From assembly GCF_038404985.1 (NCBI RefSeq), contig NZ_JBBKBA010000001.1:896001-960000 (forward strand): a stretch of DNA of 64,000 nucleotides. Reading direction: 5' to 3'. Below, piece after piece: positions 23,786-30,172 of this stretch. How positions within the stretch are numbered: the first letter of the stretch is position 1; every line of letters starts with the position of its first letter. Both the position numbers and the translations under genes were made by a program. Origin of the DNA: Ferrovibrio sp. MS7. Its GTDB lineage: Bacteria; Pseudomonadota; Alphaproteobacteria; Ferrovibrionales; Ferrovibrionaceae. The notes under the pieces are model-generated. The model saw only the letters and a list, made by a program, of their open reading frames with translations, was not told the origin of the DNA and ran no database searches.

Positions 23786-24685
23786 TTATGTGCCTCTGCC
23801 CCACAGGCCGCAATAGCGCCGCGCCACGAAGGGCAGGTTGCTGGCATAGCCGGGCCAGCTTTCGTATTGCGGCAGCTTGAAGTCGCGCTCCGCCGTATCC
23901 CAGCATTTGCCGTCCTGCGCCAGGATCTTCATGGCCGCCGACGCGTCTTCGAGGAATTTGAGCTGGGCGCGCACATCATCCTTGGTGCCGAGCCGGTCAT
24001 TCGGGCCGGGATGGCCGGGGATCAGGCGGTCCCAGTCCATTTTCAGCACCTTTTTCATAAAGGCTTCGGTTTCCAGTGGATGGAAGTCGATCATGCCGCG
24101 CCCCGGCACGCTGCCCACCGGGATGGTATCGACGATAAAGACAATCCGTTCCTTCGGTAGCCGCATCACCAGGGTCGAGTCGGAATGATTGAGGCCGTGA
24201 TAGCTCAGTTCCAGCACAGTGCCGCCGAGCGTGATGGTGCGGCCCTTGTCGCTCACCACCTCATCGGGCAGCACGGTATGCGGATCGCGCAGCTTGGCCA
24301 GCCGGGTCTTGGCCTTGTGATGCGCCACGAAGATCGCGCCGGCTTCCTTGAAGGCCTTGCCGCCGGCAATGTGGTCGTAATGGTGATGGCTGTAGATCAC
24401 GTATTTCACCGGCTTGTCGGTGACCTTGCGGATCTCATCGAGATATTGCTGACCGCCGAACGGCTTGCCATAGGCCACCGGATCGGTGGCGATCACGCCA
24501 TCCGAAGTCACCACGAACATCGCCTGATGGCCGCCATTGCGGAACACATAGACATTGTCGGTGCCATCCACCTTGGTGGTCTGGATCGCGGGCCGAGCTG
24601 GCTGCTGTTGGGCCGGCTGGGCCTGCGCGTTGCTGCTGAACAAGGCTGCCGCGCCAAGCAGCGCAGCGATCATGACACGGATCAT
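23786..24685 (-). CDS. periplasmic metallo-beta-lactamase fold hydrolase
   Basis: The 299-residue product has a signal peptide (cleavage near A-Q-A-Q, residue about 22). Its metallo-beta-lactamase domain has intact zinc ligands: SHHHYDH near residues 103-109, N-H-S-D near 167-170, Asp in F-I-V-D-T, and His in I-P-G-H-P. The domain arrangement is like quinoprotein-relay or glyoxalase-II-like periplasmic MBL proteins. The C-terminal 60 residues are helical. It is transcribed toward the A+T-rich segment, which separates it from the previous genes. The substrate is unknown. Confidence 0.88.
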   Translation of the reverse strand: MIRVMIAALLGAAALFSSNAQAQPAQQQPARPAIQTTKVDGTDNVYVFRNGGHQAMFVVTSDGVIATDPVAYGKPFGGQQYLDEIRKVTDKPVKYVIYSHHHYDHIAGGKAFKEAGAIFVAHHKAKTRLAKLRDPHTVLPDEVVSDKGRTITLGGTVLELSYHGLNHSDSTLVMRLPKERIVFIVDTIPVGSVPGRGMIDFHPLETEAFMKKVLKMDWDRLIPGHPGPNDRLGTKDDVRAQLKFLEDASAAMKILAQDGKCWDTAERDFKLPQYESWPGYASNLPFVARRYCGLWGRGT

Positions 24686-24760: not shown

Positions 24761-25393
24761 TTACCAGCGCAGCAGCCTGTGTCCCAGCAGGGCACCGAGG
24801 CCGGTGACGATAACGCCGCTCAGGCCATACCAGGTGAGCACGAAAAGCGGCGAATCATCCGGGCAATGCAGGGCATAGAAGCTGGCGGCGATGCCGGCTG
24901 AGGCCAGCCCGGCCAGCGCGCCGGCCTGGGCGGCATGGCGCGGGGCGCCGGCGCGCAGGGCATAGAGCAGGGCGGCCAGCGGCGCCAGCGAGAGCAGCGG
25001 GATCGCCACCATGCACACGGCGGCATTGCGCCCCACTAGGCGCGGCAGCCAGGCCTCGCGCGGCAGCAGCAGCAATTCCGCCAGCACGGCCAGCCCGAGC
25101 AATGCCAGCACGGCCAGCAGCGGCGCCAGGCGCGGCGCCGCCTGGGGCCGGTAGAGGCTGATGGCCTGGCGCAAAGCCAGCAAAGCCAGCATCGCCGCCA
25201 CCGCCAGTTTCAGCAGGAAGCGCCATGTGCCGGCGGCAGCCGCGATATCGCCGCGCACACCAAGCTCGATCAGCATCGCCGCCAGCGCCACGACAATGCC
25301 TAAGGCCGGCAGCAGCCACAGCCGCAGCCAGGCCTTCGGCGGCTTGGTGGCGGCATCGGCGGCCAGCGCATTGATCAGATCGTCGGTTTTCAT
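24761..25393 (-). CDS. nrsF: NrsF (DUF1109) anti-sigma factor
   Basis: A 210-residue protein with six hydrophobic helices and a short cytosolic N-terminus (MKTDDLINALAAD), as in the DUF1109/NrsF family. In Caulobacter, NrsF is the membrane anti-sigma factor for SigF. Conserved Cys residues sit in A-V-C-M-V-A-I and L-H-C-P-D-D. The ATG at 25393 is preceded by AAGGAGAAGGTG, and the gene begins 10 bases after the sigma factor stop, so both are in one operon. The divergent bufferin operon carries the same promoter element. Assignment rests on topology, the N-terminal motif and context. Confidence 0.88.
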   Translation of the reverse strand: MKTDDLINALAADAATKPPKAWLRLWLLPALGIVVALAAMLIELGVRGDIAAAAGTWRFLLKLAVAAMLALLALRQAISLYRPQAAPRLAPLLAVLALLGLAVLAELLLLPREAWLPRLVGRNAAVCMVAIPLLSLAPLAALLYALRAGAPRHAAQAGALAGLASAGIAASFYALHCPDDSPLFVLTWYGLSGVIVTGLGALLGHRLLRW

Positions 25394-25403
25394 CACCTTC
25401 TCC

Positions 25404-25949
25404 TTATCGCCGCGCCAGGCTGGCAAGGTGGCGCAGCGCGCGGTGCAGGGTCACGCGCACGGCACCATCGCTCATGCCAAGCTGGCGGCCCAGGTCATTG
25501 GCGCTGCGGCCTTCCATTGCCATGCCGGCAACGATGGCGCGCTGCCTTTCGGGCAGGCTTTGCAGCAGCGTATCGGCGTCGATGGCATGATCAGCCTCGG
25601 CTGCCGCGTCGCCGGGCGCCGCCAGTTCCTCGATCTCATCCAGCGGCAGATGCTGGCGGAAGCCGCCACGGCGCAAGGCATCCACCAGCTTGTGATGCGC
25701 GATGGCGCCGAGCCAGGGCCGCAAAGGTTGCGCCTGGTCCCAGGTATGGCGTTTGAGATGCAAAGCCAGCAGCGTCTCCTGCACGATATCCTCGCATTCC
25801 GCATCGGGCCGTCCGGCACGCGCCAGGCCGCGCCGCACCATCGGGCGCAGCTTCACCGCCGCCGCCTGCAGGAACAGGCGGTATGCGGCTTCGTCGCCGC
25901 CATTGGCCGCGCGCAGCAGGTCGTCCAGTTCTGTCTCCCGTTCCGCCAC
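25404..25949 (-). CDS. sigF: SigF-type ECF RNA polymerase sigma factor
   Basis: The 181-residue product is an ECF sigma factor with regions 2 and 4 only. Region 2 includes E-D-I-V-Q-E-T-L-L-A-L-H and the linker P-W-L-G-A-I-A-H-H-K-L-V-D. Region 4 has L-P-E-R-Q-R-A-I and a helix-turn-helix with G-M-S-D-G-A-V-R-V-T-L-H-R-A. The GTG at 25949 follows AGGA and lies just downstream of a SigF-like promoter (25966-25991), so it is likely autoregulated. It is followed by nrsF and divergent from bufA1. In Caulobacter the SigF/NrsF pair controls copper- and chromate-responsive genes including bufferin operons. Confidence 0.93.
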   Translation of the reverse strand: MAERETELDDLLRAANGGDEAAYRLFLQAAAVKLRPMVRRGLARAGRPDAECEDIVQETLLALHLKRHTWDQAQPLRPWLGAIAHHKLVDALRRGGFRQHLPLDEIEELAAPGDAAAEADHAIDADTLLQSLPERQRAIVAGMAMEGRSANDLGRQLGMSDGAVRVTLHRALRHLASLARR

Positions 25950-25965
25950 GCGGTCCTATTCCTGT

Positions 25966-25991
25966 TTCGCAGCGCCAGGGCCAAACGTTAC
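25966..25991 (-). promoter_or_regulatory. SigF-type promoter of sigF-nrsF
   Basis: On the minus strand the sequence reads GTAACG, 16 bases, then CGAA. It is identical in boxes and spacing to the element upstream of bufA1 on the other strand, and close to the GTAACC-N16-CGAA element reported for Caulobacter SigF (recalled). The -10 box ends 16 bases before the GTG, so the leader is very short. Confidence 0.85.
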
Positions 25992-26046
25992 AGCCCCGCC
26001 GCCTAAAAAAACCAGACCACATTATGCAACACGAAAGCGTGAGCCT

Positions 26047-26072
26047 GTAACGCCGGTGCATCGGGCCGCGAA
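26047..26072 (+). promoter_or_regulatory. SigF-type promoter of the bufferin operon
   Basis: The plus strand reads GTAACG at 26047-26052, 16 bases, then CGAA at 26069-26072, facing bufA1. The box sequences and spacing match the divergent sigF promoter exactly. A start point near 26080 would give a leader of roughly 68 bases. Confidence 0.87.
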
Positions 26073-26086
26073 TACCTCCTTAGCAA

Positions 26087-26133
26087 GCCAAGCCCGGCTT
26101 GCGCATCAGGCCAAGCTAGACTTGCCCATCAGG
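26087..26133 (+). repeat. imperfect 24-base tandem repeat in the bufA1 leader
   Basis: Two copies (26087-26110 and 26110-26133) begin GCCAAGC and end CATCAGG, with 20 of 24 positions identical and sharing one G. The second copy overlaps the ribosome binding site (AGGAGAGAG). Stems between CTTG and CAAG segments are possible, so the repeat may affect translation of bufA1. Confidence 0.7.
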
Positions 26134-26147
26134 AGAGAGACCCCACC

Positions 26148-26453
26148 ATGTCCCACCGCACCCTCGGCTTCGCCATCGCCGCCACGCTCGCCACCGCCGT
26201 CAGCACCGCCGCGCTGCTGTCCTCCCCCGCCCAGGCCCAGACCTCGGGCGACAAGGAGCGCTGCTACGGCATCTCGATGGCCGGCAAGAATGACTGCGCC
26301 TCCACTGGCAACAATTCCTGCGCCGGCACCGCCAAGATGGATTATGAGAAGGCGGCCTGGAAGTATGTCGCCAAGGGCACCTGCGCCAGCATGCAGGTGC
26401 AGCTGAAAGATGGCAGCAAGCGCATGGGCTCACTCGAGCCGGTGAAGGGCTAA
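26148..26453 (+). CDS. bufA1: BufA1-family bufferin metallophore precursor (DUF2282)
   Basis: The 101-residue precursor has a signal peptide (cleavage near A-Q-A-Q, residue 30) and a small Cys-containing core. Four cysteines at residues 39, 50, 58 and 79 lie in E-R-C-Y-G, N-D-C-A-S, N-S-C-A-G and G-T-C-A-S contexts, typical of DUF2282/BufA1. Bufferins are periplasmic ribosomally made peptides whose cysteines are modified by the MNIO enzyme encoded next door (reported as thiooxazoles) and which sequester copper. An AGGAGAGAG ribosome site precedes the ATG. It is the first gene of a four-gene operon under a SigF-type promoter. The metal specificity here is inferred from the family. Confidence 0.92.
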   Translation: MSHRTLGFAIAATLATAVSTAALLSSPAQAQTSGDKERCYGISMAGKNDCASTGNNSCAGTAKMDYEKAAWKYVAKGTCASMQVQLKDGSKRMGSLEPVKG

Positions 26454-26460
26454 GCCCGCC

Positions 26461-27369
26461 ATGCTGGTGGACCGCTCGCGCGACCGGCTGCCGTTCATCC
26501 GGCCGCGCTGCGCCCTGCCTTGCCGCGCTGGTGTCGGGCTCAAGCCCGAACATTACGCGGCAATTCTGGCAGAGCCGCTGGCGCCGGATTGCGGCGTCGG
26601 CTGGTTCGAGCTGCATCCTGAGAATTATCTCGGCGCGGGCGGTCCACCGCATTACTTCCTCGAACGCATCCGCGATCGCTATCCGCTGTCCTTTCACGGC
26701 GTCGGGCTGTCGATCGGCGGTGCCGGCCCGCTGGATAAAGCGCATCTCGGCGAGCTGCGCCGCCTGGTGGATCGCTATCAGCCGGCGCAATTCTCCGAGC
26801 ATCTCGCCTGGTCCAGCCATGGCGGCGCGTATCTGAATGATCTGCTACCGCTGCCATACACCAAGCAAACCCTGGCGCTGGTTGCCGATCATGTCGATCA
26901 GGCGCAGCAGGCTTTGGGCCGCCGCATGCTGATCGAGAACCCGGCTACCTATCTCGGCTTCGCCGCGTCGACGATGCCGGAAATCGATTTCCTGGCACAG
27001 CTTTCGCTGCGCAGCGGCTGTGGCCTGCTGCTCGATGTCAACAATGTTTGTGTCTCGGCTGCCAATCATGGCTTCAGCGCGGAAAGCTATATCGACCGCT
27101 TTCCGATCTCGCTGGTCGGCGAAGTGCATCTCGCCGGCCATGCCGTGCTGGAGGATGGTGGCGATAGCGTGCTGATCGACAGCCATGACCGCCCGGTCGG
27201 CGATGCGGTCTGGTCGCTCTATGACCGGCTGTTGCGGCGCGGCTGCACGACGCCGGTGTTGATCGAATGGGATGGCGATATTCCTGCCTGGTCGCGGCTG
27301 CAGGCGGAAGCACGCCGCGCCGGCGCAATGCTGGTGCAGCATGGCCAGGCCTTCGCCGAGGCAAGCTGA
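26461..27369 (+). CDS. bufB: BufB, MNIO-family (DUF692) peptide-modifying iron enzyme
   Basis: The 302-residue product is a DUF692 multinuclear non-heme iron oxidative enzyme. Candidate metal ligands are readable in a TIM-barrel-like order: E50/H52/E54 (F-E-L-H-P-E-N-Y), H79 (S-F-H-G-V), E113/H114 (S-E-H-L-A), E159 (I-E-N-P), D192 (L-D-V-N-N), H203, E221/H223/H227 (E-V-H-L-A-G-H), D240/H242 and E269/D271. It would convert BufA1 cysteines to heterocycles in the cytoplasm before export. It follows bufA1 by 7 bases and precedes bufC by one base. The ligand list is by eye from family pattern. Confidence 0.94.
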   Translation: MLVDRSRDRLPFIRPRCALPCRAGVGLKPEHYAAILAEPLAPDCGVGWFELHPENYLGAGGPPHYFLERIRDRYPLSFHGVGLSIGGAGPLDKAHLGELRRLVDRYQPAQFSEHLAWSSHGGAYLNDLLPLPYTKQTLALVADHVDQAQQALGRRMLIENPATYLGFAASTMPEIDFLAQLSLRSGCGLLLDVNNVCVSAANHGFSAESYIDRFPISLVGEVHLAGHAVLEDGGDSVLIDSHDRPVGDAVWSLYDRLLRRGCTTPVLIEWDGDIPAWSRLQAEARRAGAMLVQHGQAFAEAS

Positions 27370-27370
27370 G

Positions 27371-28114
27371 ATGAACGCCGCGCTTCATGCCCTGCAGGCG
27401 TCCTTCGCTGCTGCCCTGCTCGATCCCGATGCGGCAGCGCCAGCGGGCGTTGCCGGTCGCCGCTTCACGATCTACCGCAACAACGTGCAGGCCAGCCTGG
27501 CAGCGGCTTTGGAAGCGCGTTTCCCGGTGATCCGCCGTCTGGTCGGGGATGAATTCTGCCGCGCGCTGATGCTCAGCTTTCTGCGTGCGGCACCGCCCAG
27601 CGGTCCGGTGCTGGCGCGCTATGGCGCCGGGCTTGGCGATTTCCTGGAGGGTTTCGCTCCCGCCGCCACGCTGCCGTATCTCGCCGATATGGCGCGGCTG
27701 GAATGGGCGCGCAGCGAGGCCTATCACGCCGCCGATGCGCCGGTGGTGCAGATTGATGCTCTCGCGTTACTCCCGCAAGACCAGCTGCCAGCCGCGCGGC
27801 TGCTGCTGCATCCGGCCCTGCGCCTGGTGGCCTCGGCTTATCCCATCGTGTCGCTGTGGCACACCAATGCCCATGACGCGGAAGTACGCCCGTTGAGCGA
27901 TGCCCTGCCCGGCGAAGCCGCACTGATCACGCGGCCGCATCTTGAAGTGCTGGTCACGCCTTTGCCTGGGAGCGGTGCGGCTTTGGTTGCCGCCTTGCTG
28001 GATGGCGCGGATTTTGCCGAGGCCGCAGAAGCGGCCGGCACGCAAGCGGATCTGCCGCGCCTGCTGGCCCTGCTGTTCGATGCCGGCGCCATAGCCGGCG
28101 TTTCAGTTGCCTGA
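27371..28114 (+). CDS. bufC: BufC, MNIO partner protein (DUF2063 N-terminal domain)
   Basis: The 247-residue product has the DUF2063 N-terminal helical domain: F-A-A-A-L-L-D-P-D near residues 12-20, the F-T-I-Y-R-N-N-V-Q-A-S-L-x-x-A-L-E motif near 33-49, and F-P-V-I-R-R-L-V-G-D-E-F. A variable C-terminal domain rich in Leu/Ala follows. Proteins of this type partner MNIO enzymes and probably bind the precursor peptide. The ATG at 27371 follows the bufB stop by one base, so the genes are translationally coupled. Confidence 0.92.
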   Translation: MNAALHALQASFAAALLDPDAAAPAGVAGRRFTIYRNNVQASLAAALEARFPVIRRLVGDEFCRALMLSFLRAAPPSGPVLARYGAGLGDFLEGFAPAATLPYLADMARLEWARSEAYHAADAPVVQIDALALLPQDQLPAARLLLHPALRLVASAYPIVSLWHTNAHDAEVRPLSDALPGEAALITRPHLEVLVTPLPGSGAALVAALLDGADFAEAAEAAGTQADLPRLLALLFDAGAIAGVSVA

Positions 28115-28129
28115 ACCAAAGAGGAAACC

Positions 28130-28558
28130 ATGACGATTGCCCTCGCGCCGCTGCTGGCGCTGTTCCAGCGCATCCCGCATGACCTGATCGCGCTGCTGGC
28201 GCGCATTGGCATCGGCGCCGTGTTCCTGCGTTCCGGCCTGCTGAAATGGGATGGCTGGGCCGATGGCACCACGCTGGCGCTGTTCCGCGAGGAATACCGC
28301 CTGCCGTTGCTGCCGCCGGAGATCGCAGCACCCTTGGCGATGGCGGCTGAATTATCGCTGCCGCCGCTTTTGCTGCTCGGCCTGGCGACGCGCTTTGCCG
28401 CTTTGGGCCTGCTCGGCATGACCCTGGTGATCCAGGTCTTCGTCTATCCCAATGCCTTCGATACCCATGCCACCTGGGCCGTGGCTTTGCTCTACCTGAT
28501 CAGGCAGGGCGCGGGCGTGGTGTCAGTGGATCGGCTGCTCGGCGGCCGGCTGGGCTGA
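28130..28558 (+). CDS. DoxX family membrane protein
   Basis: The 142-residue product has four hydrophobic helices and the DoxX features L-L-A-R-I-G-I-G-A-V-F-L-R-S-G near residues 21-35 and F-V-Y-P-N-A-F near 101-107. AGAGGAAACC precedes the ATG. It lies 15 bases after bufC and is probably the last gene of the bufferin operon, where DoxX is a frequent partner. Its role there is unproven; a redox or electron-transfer function in maturation or metal handling is speculation. Confidence 0.9.
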   Translation: MTIALAPLLALFQRIPHDLIALLARIGIGAVFLRSGLLKWDGWADGTTLALFREEYRLPLLPPEIAAPLAMAAELSLPPLLLLGLATRFAALGLLGMTLVIQVFVYPNAFDTHATWAVALLYLIRQGAGVVSVDRLLGGRLG

Positions 28559-28564
28559 AGCCGT

Positions 28565-30172
28565 TCAGCTTTCCTTGCCCAGCACGCGGTGCAGCTTGCG
28601 CAGCAGGCGGCGCCGTTCCGGATCGCTGCCGGCGCGGCGGAGTTGCTGCTGCACCTGCAGCATGAGCTGCGCATAGTCGTTATGCCAGTCATGCCCGGCC
28701 ATGGCCTCGGCTTCGGCATAGCGGTCGAGCCGCTTGCGCGCCACGCCGGCTTTCAGCAGGCGCGGATGCGGCGCTGTCAGGTCGTAATATTCATCCAGCT
28801 TCGGCACCGTTACCATCGGCGCCTGTTCGCCCCAGCCGGCTATGGCGCTGCGCAATGCCGCGATGGCATCGGCCTCGCCATGGGTCAGCAGCAGGCCGCG
28901 CCGCACCGGCAGCCGGTCGCGCAGCCAATCGAGCAATTCATCATGGTCGGCATGGCCGGAATAGATTTCCAGCTTGCGGATGCTGGCCCGCACCTGCACT
29001 TCGTCGCCCTGGATGCGCACCGGGTTGGTGCCCTGTTCCAGCAGCGCGCCGAGCGTGCCGGCGGCCTGATAGCCGATCAGCAGCACGGTGGCATTGGCCC
29101 GCCACAGATTGTTCTTCAGGTGATGCCGGATGCGGCCGGCCTCGCACATGCCGGAAGCGGCGATGATGATGGCGCCGCCGCTCACCTGCTCGATCTGCAT
29201 GCTTTCCTGCACGCTGCGGGTGAAATGCAGGCTGCCGCCCTGGAAGGGCTGGCGCTCGCTGCTCTGCACGCCATTGGTCTTGTGCAGGTAGCGCGCGAAG
29301 ACATTCGTGATATTGGTCGCCAGCGGTGAATCGACAAAGACCGGCACGCGTTTCACCGCGCCTTCCGCCATCAGCCGCGTCAGGTCGGCGAGCAATTCCT
29401 GGGTCCGCTCCACGGCAAAGGCCGGGATCACCAGGTTGCCGCCGGCGGCGAGCGCGGTATTCACCTCGGCGGCCAGGGCGGCGCGGCGGCCGGCATCGTC
29501 CAGCTTCGGCCGTGGCCGGCCGCCATAGGTCGATTCCATCACCACCACATCCAGCGCCTTGGGCGCTTCGGCGATTTCCTGCAAGGCCTTGTGTTCCGGG
29601 CCAATATCGCCGGAGAACAGCAACCGCAGGGTTTCGCCGCCGCTTTCCGCTTCCAGTTCGATGGAGGTGGCGCCGAGAATATGGCCGGCATTCCAGAACC
29701 GGGCCCGCAGCCCAGGCACCACTTCGAACCAGGTGTTGTAGTCGCGCGGCAGCAGCAATTGCAGGCTGGCCTCGGCGTCGTCCACGGTATAGATCGGCTG
29801 CACGATGCCGAGGCCGCGGCGCTGATTACGGCGGTTCAGCCGCTCCACTTCCATTTCCTGGATGCCGCCGGAATCCGGCAGCATGAAGCGCAGCAGGTCG
29901 ACCGTGCCGGGCGTGGCATAGATCGGGCCGCCATAGCCGGCCTTGGTCAGTTTCGGCACCAGGCCGCTATGGTCGGTATGGGCATGGGTCAGCAGCACGG
30001 CGGCGATGTGGCGCGGATCGAACGGCCAGGCTTCGTAATTCATCTGCTTCAGGGTCTTGTCGCCCTGGAACATGCCGCAATCGATCAGCACCGCCTGGTT
30101 GCCGATTTCCAGCCGGTAGCAGGAGCCGGTAACGGTGCCGGCGGCACCATGCACGCCAAGACGCAGACTCAT
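28565..30172 (-). CDS. metallo-beta-lactamase/beta-CASP RNA-processing-type hydrolase
   Basis: The 535-residue product has an N-terminal metallo-beta-lactamase domain with HAHTDH at residues 63-68, a beta-CASP insert, and the C-terminal RMMBL motif Y-S-G-H-A-D-H-D. This is the architecture of CPSF-73-like RNases. It carries a basic Arg-rich C-terminal tail. It would cleave or trim RNA in the cytoplasm. Its start overlaps the stop of the phosphorylase gene (ATGA at 30169-30172), so it is translationally coupled, which links an RNase to nucleotide phosphorolysis. Confidence 0.92.
   Translation of the reverse strand: MSLRLGVHGAAGTVTGSCYRLEIGNQAVLIDCGMFQGDKTLKQMNYEAWPFDPRHIAAVLLTHAHTDHSGLVPKLTKAGYGGPIYATPGTVDLLRFMLPDSGGIQEMEVERLNRRNQRRGLGIVQPIYTVDDAEASLQLLLPRDYNTWFEVVPGLRARFWNAGHILGATSIELEAESGGETLRLLFSGDIGPEHKALQEIAEAPKALDVVVMESTYGGRPRPKLDDAGRRAALAAEVNTALAAGGNLVIPAFAVERTQELLADLTRLMAEGAVKRVPVFVDSPLATNITNVFARYLHKTNGVQSSERQPFQGGSLHFTRSVQESMQIEQVSGGAIIIAASGMCEAGRIRHHLKNNLWRANATVLLIGYQAAGTLGALLEQGTNPVRIQGDEVQVRASIRKLEIYSGHADHDELLDWLRDRLPVRRGLLLTHGEADAIAALRSAIAGWGEQAPMVTVPKLDEYYDLTAPHPRLLKAGVARKRLDRYAEAEAMAGHDWHNDYAQLMLQVQQQLRRAGSDPERRRLLRKLHRVLGKES

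Follow-up and report, generated by a model that had tools for sequence, protein, structure and literature searches.

A SigF/NrsF-linked bufferin locus with divergent SigF-type promoters in Ferrovibrio sp. MS7

We analyzed a bufferin locus in a 64,000-nucleotide (nt) stretch of DNA from Ferrovibrio sp. MS7 (NZ_JBBKBA010000001.1, positions 896,001-960,000), referred to below as the window, whose own positions serve as coordinates. At this locus, the sigF-nrsF unit on the minus strand is divergent from the bufA-bufB-bufC-doxX unit on the plus strand, and two SigF-type promoter sites lie between both units. The locus is very probably a standard SigF/NrsF-controlled Buf1 bufferin module. The analysis establishes the genes and their order, the promoter sequences, the conservation of these promoters, and their association with an adjacent sigF. 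The identities of all six genes were confirmed by reading frames and profile matches (Pfam, NCBIfam), and the features are as follows (aa, amino acids; bp, base pairs; ECF, extracytoplasmic function).

24761-25393, minus strand: nrsF, NrsF-family anti-sigma factor, 210 aa, with Cys127 and Cys177 (Pfam PF06532, E 1.8e-49)
25404-25949, minus strand: sigF, ECF sigma factor, 181 aa, GTG start (Pfam sigma-70 r2/r4; NCBIfam PRK12512, 208.7 bits, cut-off 198)
25966-25991, minus strand: SigF-type promoter of sigF-nrsF, GTAACG-N16-CGAA
26030-26044, plus strand: conserved palindrome CACGAAAGCGTGAGC, a possible operator lying 2 bp upstream of the bufA -35 box
26047-26072, plus strand: SigF-type promoter of bufA-bufB-bufC-doxX, GTAACG-N16-CGAA
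26148-26453, plus strand: bufA, Buf1-type (DUF2282) bufferin precursor, 101 aa, with Cys 39, 50, 58, and 79 (PF10048, E 4.1e-22)
26461-27369, plus strand: bufB, MNIO-family bufferin maturase (PF05114, E 1.7e-99; NCBIfam MNIO_BufB, 370.2 bits, cut-off 310)
27371-28114, plus strand: bufC, DUF2063/HvfC-like MNIO partner (PF09836, E 1e-23; HvfC model, 60.4 bits, under the cut-off of 142)
28130-28558, plus strand: doxX, DoxX-family protein (PF07681, E 2.9e-18; HvfX model, 51.1 bits, under the cut-off of 80)

The composition of the plus-strand unit is that of a Buf1 cluster. The DUF2282 precursor, which has a PF10048 match above the cut-off and an apparent signal peptide (read by eye), adjoins an MNIO enzyme of the BufB type, and the PF09836 and PF07681 matches of the DUF2063 partner and the DoxX protein exceeded their cut-offs. 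As in SigF/NrsF (ECF16) systems, sigF and nrsF are neighbors on one strand, and the PF06532 match was above the Pfam cut-off; nrsF lies outside the interval 25404-28558 treated in an earlier note on this DNA. In alignments that counted the window's sequence twice, all 43 NrsF rows had Cys127 and 35 of the 43 had Cys177, and the four cysteines of BufA were shared by all 27 rows. The alignment of BufB contained many invariant residues. The flanking genes for a metallo-beta-lactamase (23786-24685) and a beta-CASP protein (28565-30172) were considered as further parts of the module and rejected, as neither was matched in the other 43 loci read (see below).

Paired promoters and the adjacent sigF

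A scan of the window for GTAACG-N15-17-CGAA returned two matches, both with N16, against a chance expectation of 0.06, and two matches were obtained in none of 100 shuffles. The earlier note had placed both sites at these positions and strands, and its gene identities, divergent layout, and SigF-type promoters were likewise right. The sites diverge, their -35 boxes being separated by 55 bp. The bufA-side site ends 75 nt ahead of bufA, with a predicted leader of ~68 nt, and the sigF-side site ends 16 nt ahead of the sigF GTG, where the leader would be ~10 nt if transcription starts ~7 nt downstream of the promoter. Both sites read TGTAAC and fit the ECF16 consensus (T/C)GTAAC-N17-CGAA quoted in PMC8315932.

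The relation between these promoters and sigF was analyzed in 73 bufA loci, comprising 70 of the more than 100 matches in the order of genome G201 and all three in the family of genome G197. Forty of the 70 were selected by hand, in part to raise the share of sigF-linked copies, and a locus was counted as lacking sigF when none was found in the upstream stretch retrieved, which was 1 to 1.5 kb long (shorter at contig ends). With at most one mismatch allowed, the 19 loci with an adjacent sigF had a promoter on the bufA side in 18 cases, on the opposite side in 19, and on both sides in 18, whereas the corresponding counts for the 54 loci without sigF were 2, 7, and 0. Exact matches on the bufA side, the opposite side, and both sides numbered 16, 6, and 5 of 19 with sigF versus 1, 0, and 0 of 54 without. 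For promoters on both sides, Fisher's test gave p ~3e-16, uncorrected for relatedness or hand-picking and therefore indicative only. Thus, paired promoters are tied to an adjacent sigF in the sampled loci, a result that, given the hand-picked sampling, describes an association and not a prevalence. A side observation from the same 73 loci (L144-L215 for the order of G201) was that 52 of the 54 copies without an adjacent sigF also lacked a bufA-side promoter within one mismatch, indicating that a differently regulated class of bufferin loci exists there.

The conservation of the promoters was followed in a 44-locus set consisting of the window, three loci from a BufB scan, and 40 loci picked for strong NrsF scores, kinship, or twin-pattern hits. 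sigF was divergent from bufA in 17 of the 44, and on the bufA side of these GTAAC-N17-CGAA was exact in 16 and carried one mismatch in the other. All seven genus loci read were exact on both sides; in them GTAAC and CGAA were invariant and the 17-bp spacer was 42% identical. Nine of the 17 divergent loci were exact on both sides, with the same sixth -35 base in six and a different one in three, so the conserved core is GTAAC-N17-CGAA. The "identical boxes" of the earlier note are thus literally true in this window, but the sixth base carries little weight, and exact twins amount to the usual consensus only.

Counting all searches, 34 loci with sigF divergent from bufA were collected, the window included (L143 and L173 duplicate L091 and L095, so each pair was counted once). 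A strict twin pattern, with 30-60 bp between the sites, was found in 10 of 385 class genomes and in none of the reversed controls, and in 5 of these 10 (G000, G005, G006, G008, and G201) it lay between sigF and bufA. The promoter pair of G110 (L089) is 68 bp apart, and in two uncultured Erythrobacter contigs (L036 and L037) the twin promoters separate bufA-doxX-sigF-nrsF from bufB-bufC. NrsF was matched in 19 of 61 genomes in the relatives search and in 80 of 385 class genomes. No NrsF match was obtained in the genus genomes G003 (83% complete) and G007 (87% complete), and the same-species genome G397 was left out of that search. The earlier note had regarded the clustered, divergent twin-promoter arrangement as special to this copy; instead, the Caulobacter genes are arranged in this way too, and the layout is seen again within the window's genus and in further families.

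The genome of Ferrovibrio sp. MS7 contains 8 GTAACG-N15-17-CGAA sites and 11 GTAAC-N17-CGAA sites, and the divergent twin pattern (30-60 bp between) occurs at one place, this locus. No further SigF target was supported. A promoter role could be supported for none of the nine GTAAC-N17-CGAA sites besides the pair, which were read by eye. Among the candidates, a CusF-like copper protein gene (named by eye, contig C2) was rejected as a third target. The exact GTAACG-N16-CGAA that begins 68 bp ahead of its start lies inside the final part of a small reading frame upstream, and this site was exact in none of 12 other matched genus loci, with one mismatch in G001. The other sites lie inside or abut reading frames or, at L041, precede a start codon by 2 bp, and some of these placements are uncertain as frames are open on both strands.

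Profile searches of the same genome returned one DUF2282 match and three MNIO matches. At L032 26-2283 (contig C1 ~427.6-429.9 kb), the start of a BufB-type MNIO gene adjoins the end of a gene for a 477-aa protein whose C-terminal part looks cysteine-rich by eye; this protein had no Pfam or NCBIfam match and is possibly an unusual MNIO substrate. At another place (L034 210-3212, contig C1 ~1486-1489 kb), a DUF3750 gene is followed by MNIO, HvfC-like, and HvfX-like genes, and no precursor gene was seen by eye between the DUF3750 and MNIO genes among frames of at least 50 aa.

A palindrome beside the bufA promoter

The element at 26030-26044, CACGAAAGCGTGAGC, contains the inverted repeat CACG-N4-CGTG. 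Across the seven genus loci the palindrome was 93% identical, while identity was 42% in the promoter spacer and 27% in the next 24 bp upstream of the element. The pattern CACGAANNCGTGAGC, chosen after the genus sequences had been seen, occurred once per genome in 6 of 10 genus genomes, always at this locus, with no match in the reversed-pattern control; of the remaining genomes, G008 carries a variant and G003, G007, and G397 had no match. A looser form was found in 10 of the 33 testable divergent loci (L178, without a bufA-side site, was left out of the 34), against a mean of 0.02 loci in base shuffles; outside the genus, the matches were three loci from two further families. Within the order of G201, the palindrome was present in 1 of 16 testable sigF-linked loci, indicating that it is lineage-specific. 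The palindrome together with GTAAC-N17-CGAA was found in 7 of 385 class genomes, with none in the reversed control. Six of these were at sigF-bufA and one was in G374 (L142 1501-2870), where the site and a similar upstream palindrome precede a DsbD-type gene and a thioredoxin-like gene (the second assigned by eye), with another sigma-70-family gene alongside. A full-text literature search with the 12-base core of the palindrome and a variant gave, among the titles listed (12 of 13), mostly microbiome surveys and none on SigF or bufferins; its coverage was partial and the motif may be printed otherwise, so we do not claim that it is unpublished.

The bufA promoter may thus be under the joint control of SigF and a second regulator bound at 26030-26044, a tentative explanation that draws on the contrast between the palindrome and its surroundings and on its recurrence beside GTAAC-N17-CGAA. 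The palindrome was unmatched in 23 of the 33 testable divergent loci and is therefore not needed for the module in general, and its occurrence once per genus genome means that no regulon of its own is visible. In addition, PMC3511200 judges the equivalent Caulobacter gene CC3254 to be solely SigF-regulated. The bufferin promoter of the genus and of a few further lineages might not be a pure SigF promoter, with a second DNA-binding protein recognizing CACGAA-NN-CGTGA beside the -35 box, although we consider this the less probable case. In that case, SigF release would not suffice to set metallophore output, which would also require, or be blocked by, a second signal. The palindrome offers one concrete, testable lead on additional control.

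Mechanism and alternative explanations

By analogy with Caulobacter and other bacteria, the membrane protein NrsF, which has two conserved cysteines, would hold the ECF16-type SigF inactive until thiophilic metal or oxidant stress at these cysteines releases it. RNA polymerase with SigF would then start at the two divergent GTAAC-N17-CGAA promoters, yielding BufA, BufB, BufC, and DoxX and replenishing sigF-nrsF. BufB with BufC would modify the cysteines of BufA, and the exported BufA would buffer copper or similar metals in the periplasm. A mechanism as in Caulobacter is most likely, and it is from that organism that a metal signal and regulation through this SigF are attributed to the locus. 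The earlier note called the promoters direct evidence for a self-contained metal-stress module, which is fair as an inference by homology, but matching a promoter motif does not directly demonstrate function. Of its claim that the sigma factor drives both itself and the metallophore, strong self-activation is uncertain: in Caulobacter, autoregulation of sigF was judged not to be strong under chromium and cadmium (PMC3511200), but sigF and nrsF did increase under copper (PMC8224329).

The assignment to a SigF/NrsF-controlled Buf1 module is supported by the family matches, the fit to the ECF16 consensus, the 34 divergent loci, the tie between paired promoters and an adjacent sigF in the sampled loci, the conserved cysteines of NrsF and BufA, the many invariant residues of BufB, and Caulobacter experiments on the equivalent genes and promoters (PMC3511200, PMC8224329). 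Several observations weigh against it. NrsF scored 95.7 bits against the NCBIfam NrsF equivalog, under the cut-off of 300, and BufA scored 24.7 bits against NCBIfam BufA2, under the cut-off of 60, the latter being expected if BufA is Buf1 rather than Buf2. On the sigF side of the 17 divergent loci, the promoter was exact in only nine, deviated by a single mismatch or by a spacer shortened by one base in six, and was absent within one mismatch in two, suggesting that self-activation is less constrained than bufA activation; Caulobacter sigF is also weakly self-regulated under chromium (PMC3511200). The paired pattern is not confined to sigF-bufA, since in five of the ten class genomes it lies elsewhere: between bufA and bufB in G026 and G160, more than 1 kb upstream of sigF in G182 and G278, where a bufferin gene was not found, and in G020. 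In G020 (L084 5331-7371), twin SigF-type promoters lie upstream of sigF-nrsF. The 12.6 kb read there contained no bufferin gene, and a third SigF-type site stands between nrsF and a gene that by eye resembles a methionine sulfoxide reductase gene.

This G020 arrangement and the conserved NrsF cysteines would also suit the same circuit with an oxidant (hypochlorite, peroxide, or another thiol-oxidizing agent) instead of a metal as its main signal and BufA acting partly as a sacrificial thiol. We consider this rather unlikely, as bufferins enhance growth under copper stress (PMC12452194) and in Caulobacter, Cr and Cd (PMC3511200) as well as Cu (PMC8224329) induce genes that depend on SigF. The nine other genomic sites with no supported promoter role would be in keeping with a chance resemblance of the twin sites and an operon run by a housekeeping sigma factor. 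The 0.06 matches expected in the window, the invariant boxes around a variable spacer in the genus, and the confinement of both-sides promoters to sampled loci with sigF make such a coincidence very improbable. The SigF/NrsF-controlled module is thus preferred. The Caulobacter SigF-bufferin circuit recurs as a unit whose both-side promoters go with an adjacent sigF, and this recurrence supports using the motif to predict the regulation of bufferin clusters elsewhere.

Comparison with known systems

The arrangement is already known from Caulobacter and the Buf1-cluster literature, and the locus is another member. Sigma factor and NrsF genes are reported in Buf1 but not Buf2 clusters (PMC12452194). 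The BufB scan of genome contigs returned four loci, none from Caulobacter, so the comparison rests on papers and not on DNA. In Caulobacter crescentus, CC3252 is the second gene of the sigF (CC3253) operon, and CC3254 opens the unit CC3254-CC3257, encoding DUF2282, DUF692, DUF2063, and DoxX proteins (PMC3511200); the divergence of the two units follows from locus numbering and their first genes. The two loci share all six gene families and their order, carry SigF promoters with near-identical boxes on both units, and have bufA leaders of similar length, the start being mapped at -61 there versus the ~68 nt predicted here. They differ in the sixth -35 base, which is C in the published consensus and G in the window, and in the regulon, which in Caulobacter adds a second DUF2282/DUF692/DUF2063 operon and an msrPQ-like unit, whereas the Ferrovibrio genome has its single DUF2282 match.

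The Caulobacter promoters have been studied experimentally. The start of CC3254 was located by 5' RACE, and the sigF promoter was already established; lacZ fusions were used to test both, and SigF overproduction activated both (PMC3511200). sigF was not strongly autoregulated under chromium and cadmium though its promoter matches, and a further unknown regulator was proposed. Replacing two conserved NrsF cysteines raised SigF-dependent expression (PMC3511200); Cys127 and Cys177 were assumed to correspond to Caulobacter C131 and C181. Copper induces this Caulobacter gene set including sigF and nrsF, and a sigF mutant is copper-sensitive (PMC8224329).

The gig cluster of Cupriavidus metallidurans, likened here by description, is described as the same cluster as that of Caulobacter and is induced by Au, Ag, and Cu; unlike in Caulobacter, no effect on copper resistance was reported, possibly masked by other copper determinants (PMC8224329). 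The bcrS-abcS/bcrXQP system of Brucella melitensis (ECF16) also combines a sigma factor and an NrsF-family anti-sigma factor with an adjacent target operon and a (T/C)GTAAC-N17-CGAA promoter, and there an ECF16 sigma factor with this type of partner and promoter serves hypochlorite resistance (PMC8315932).

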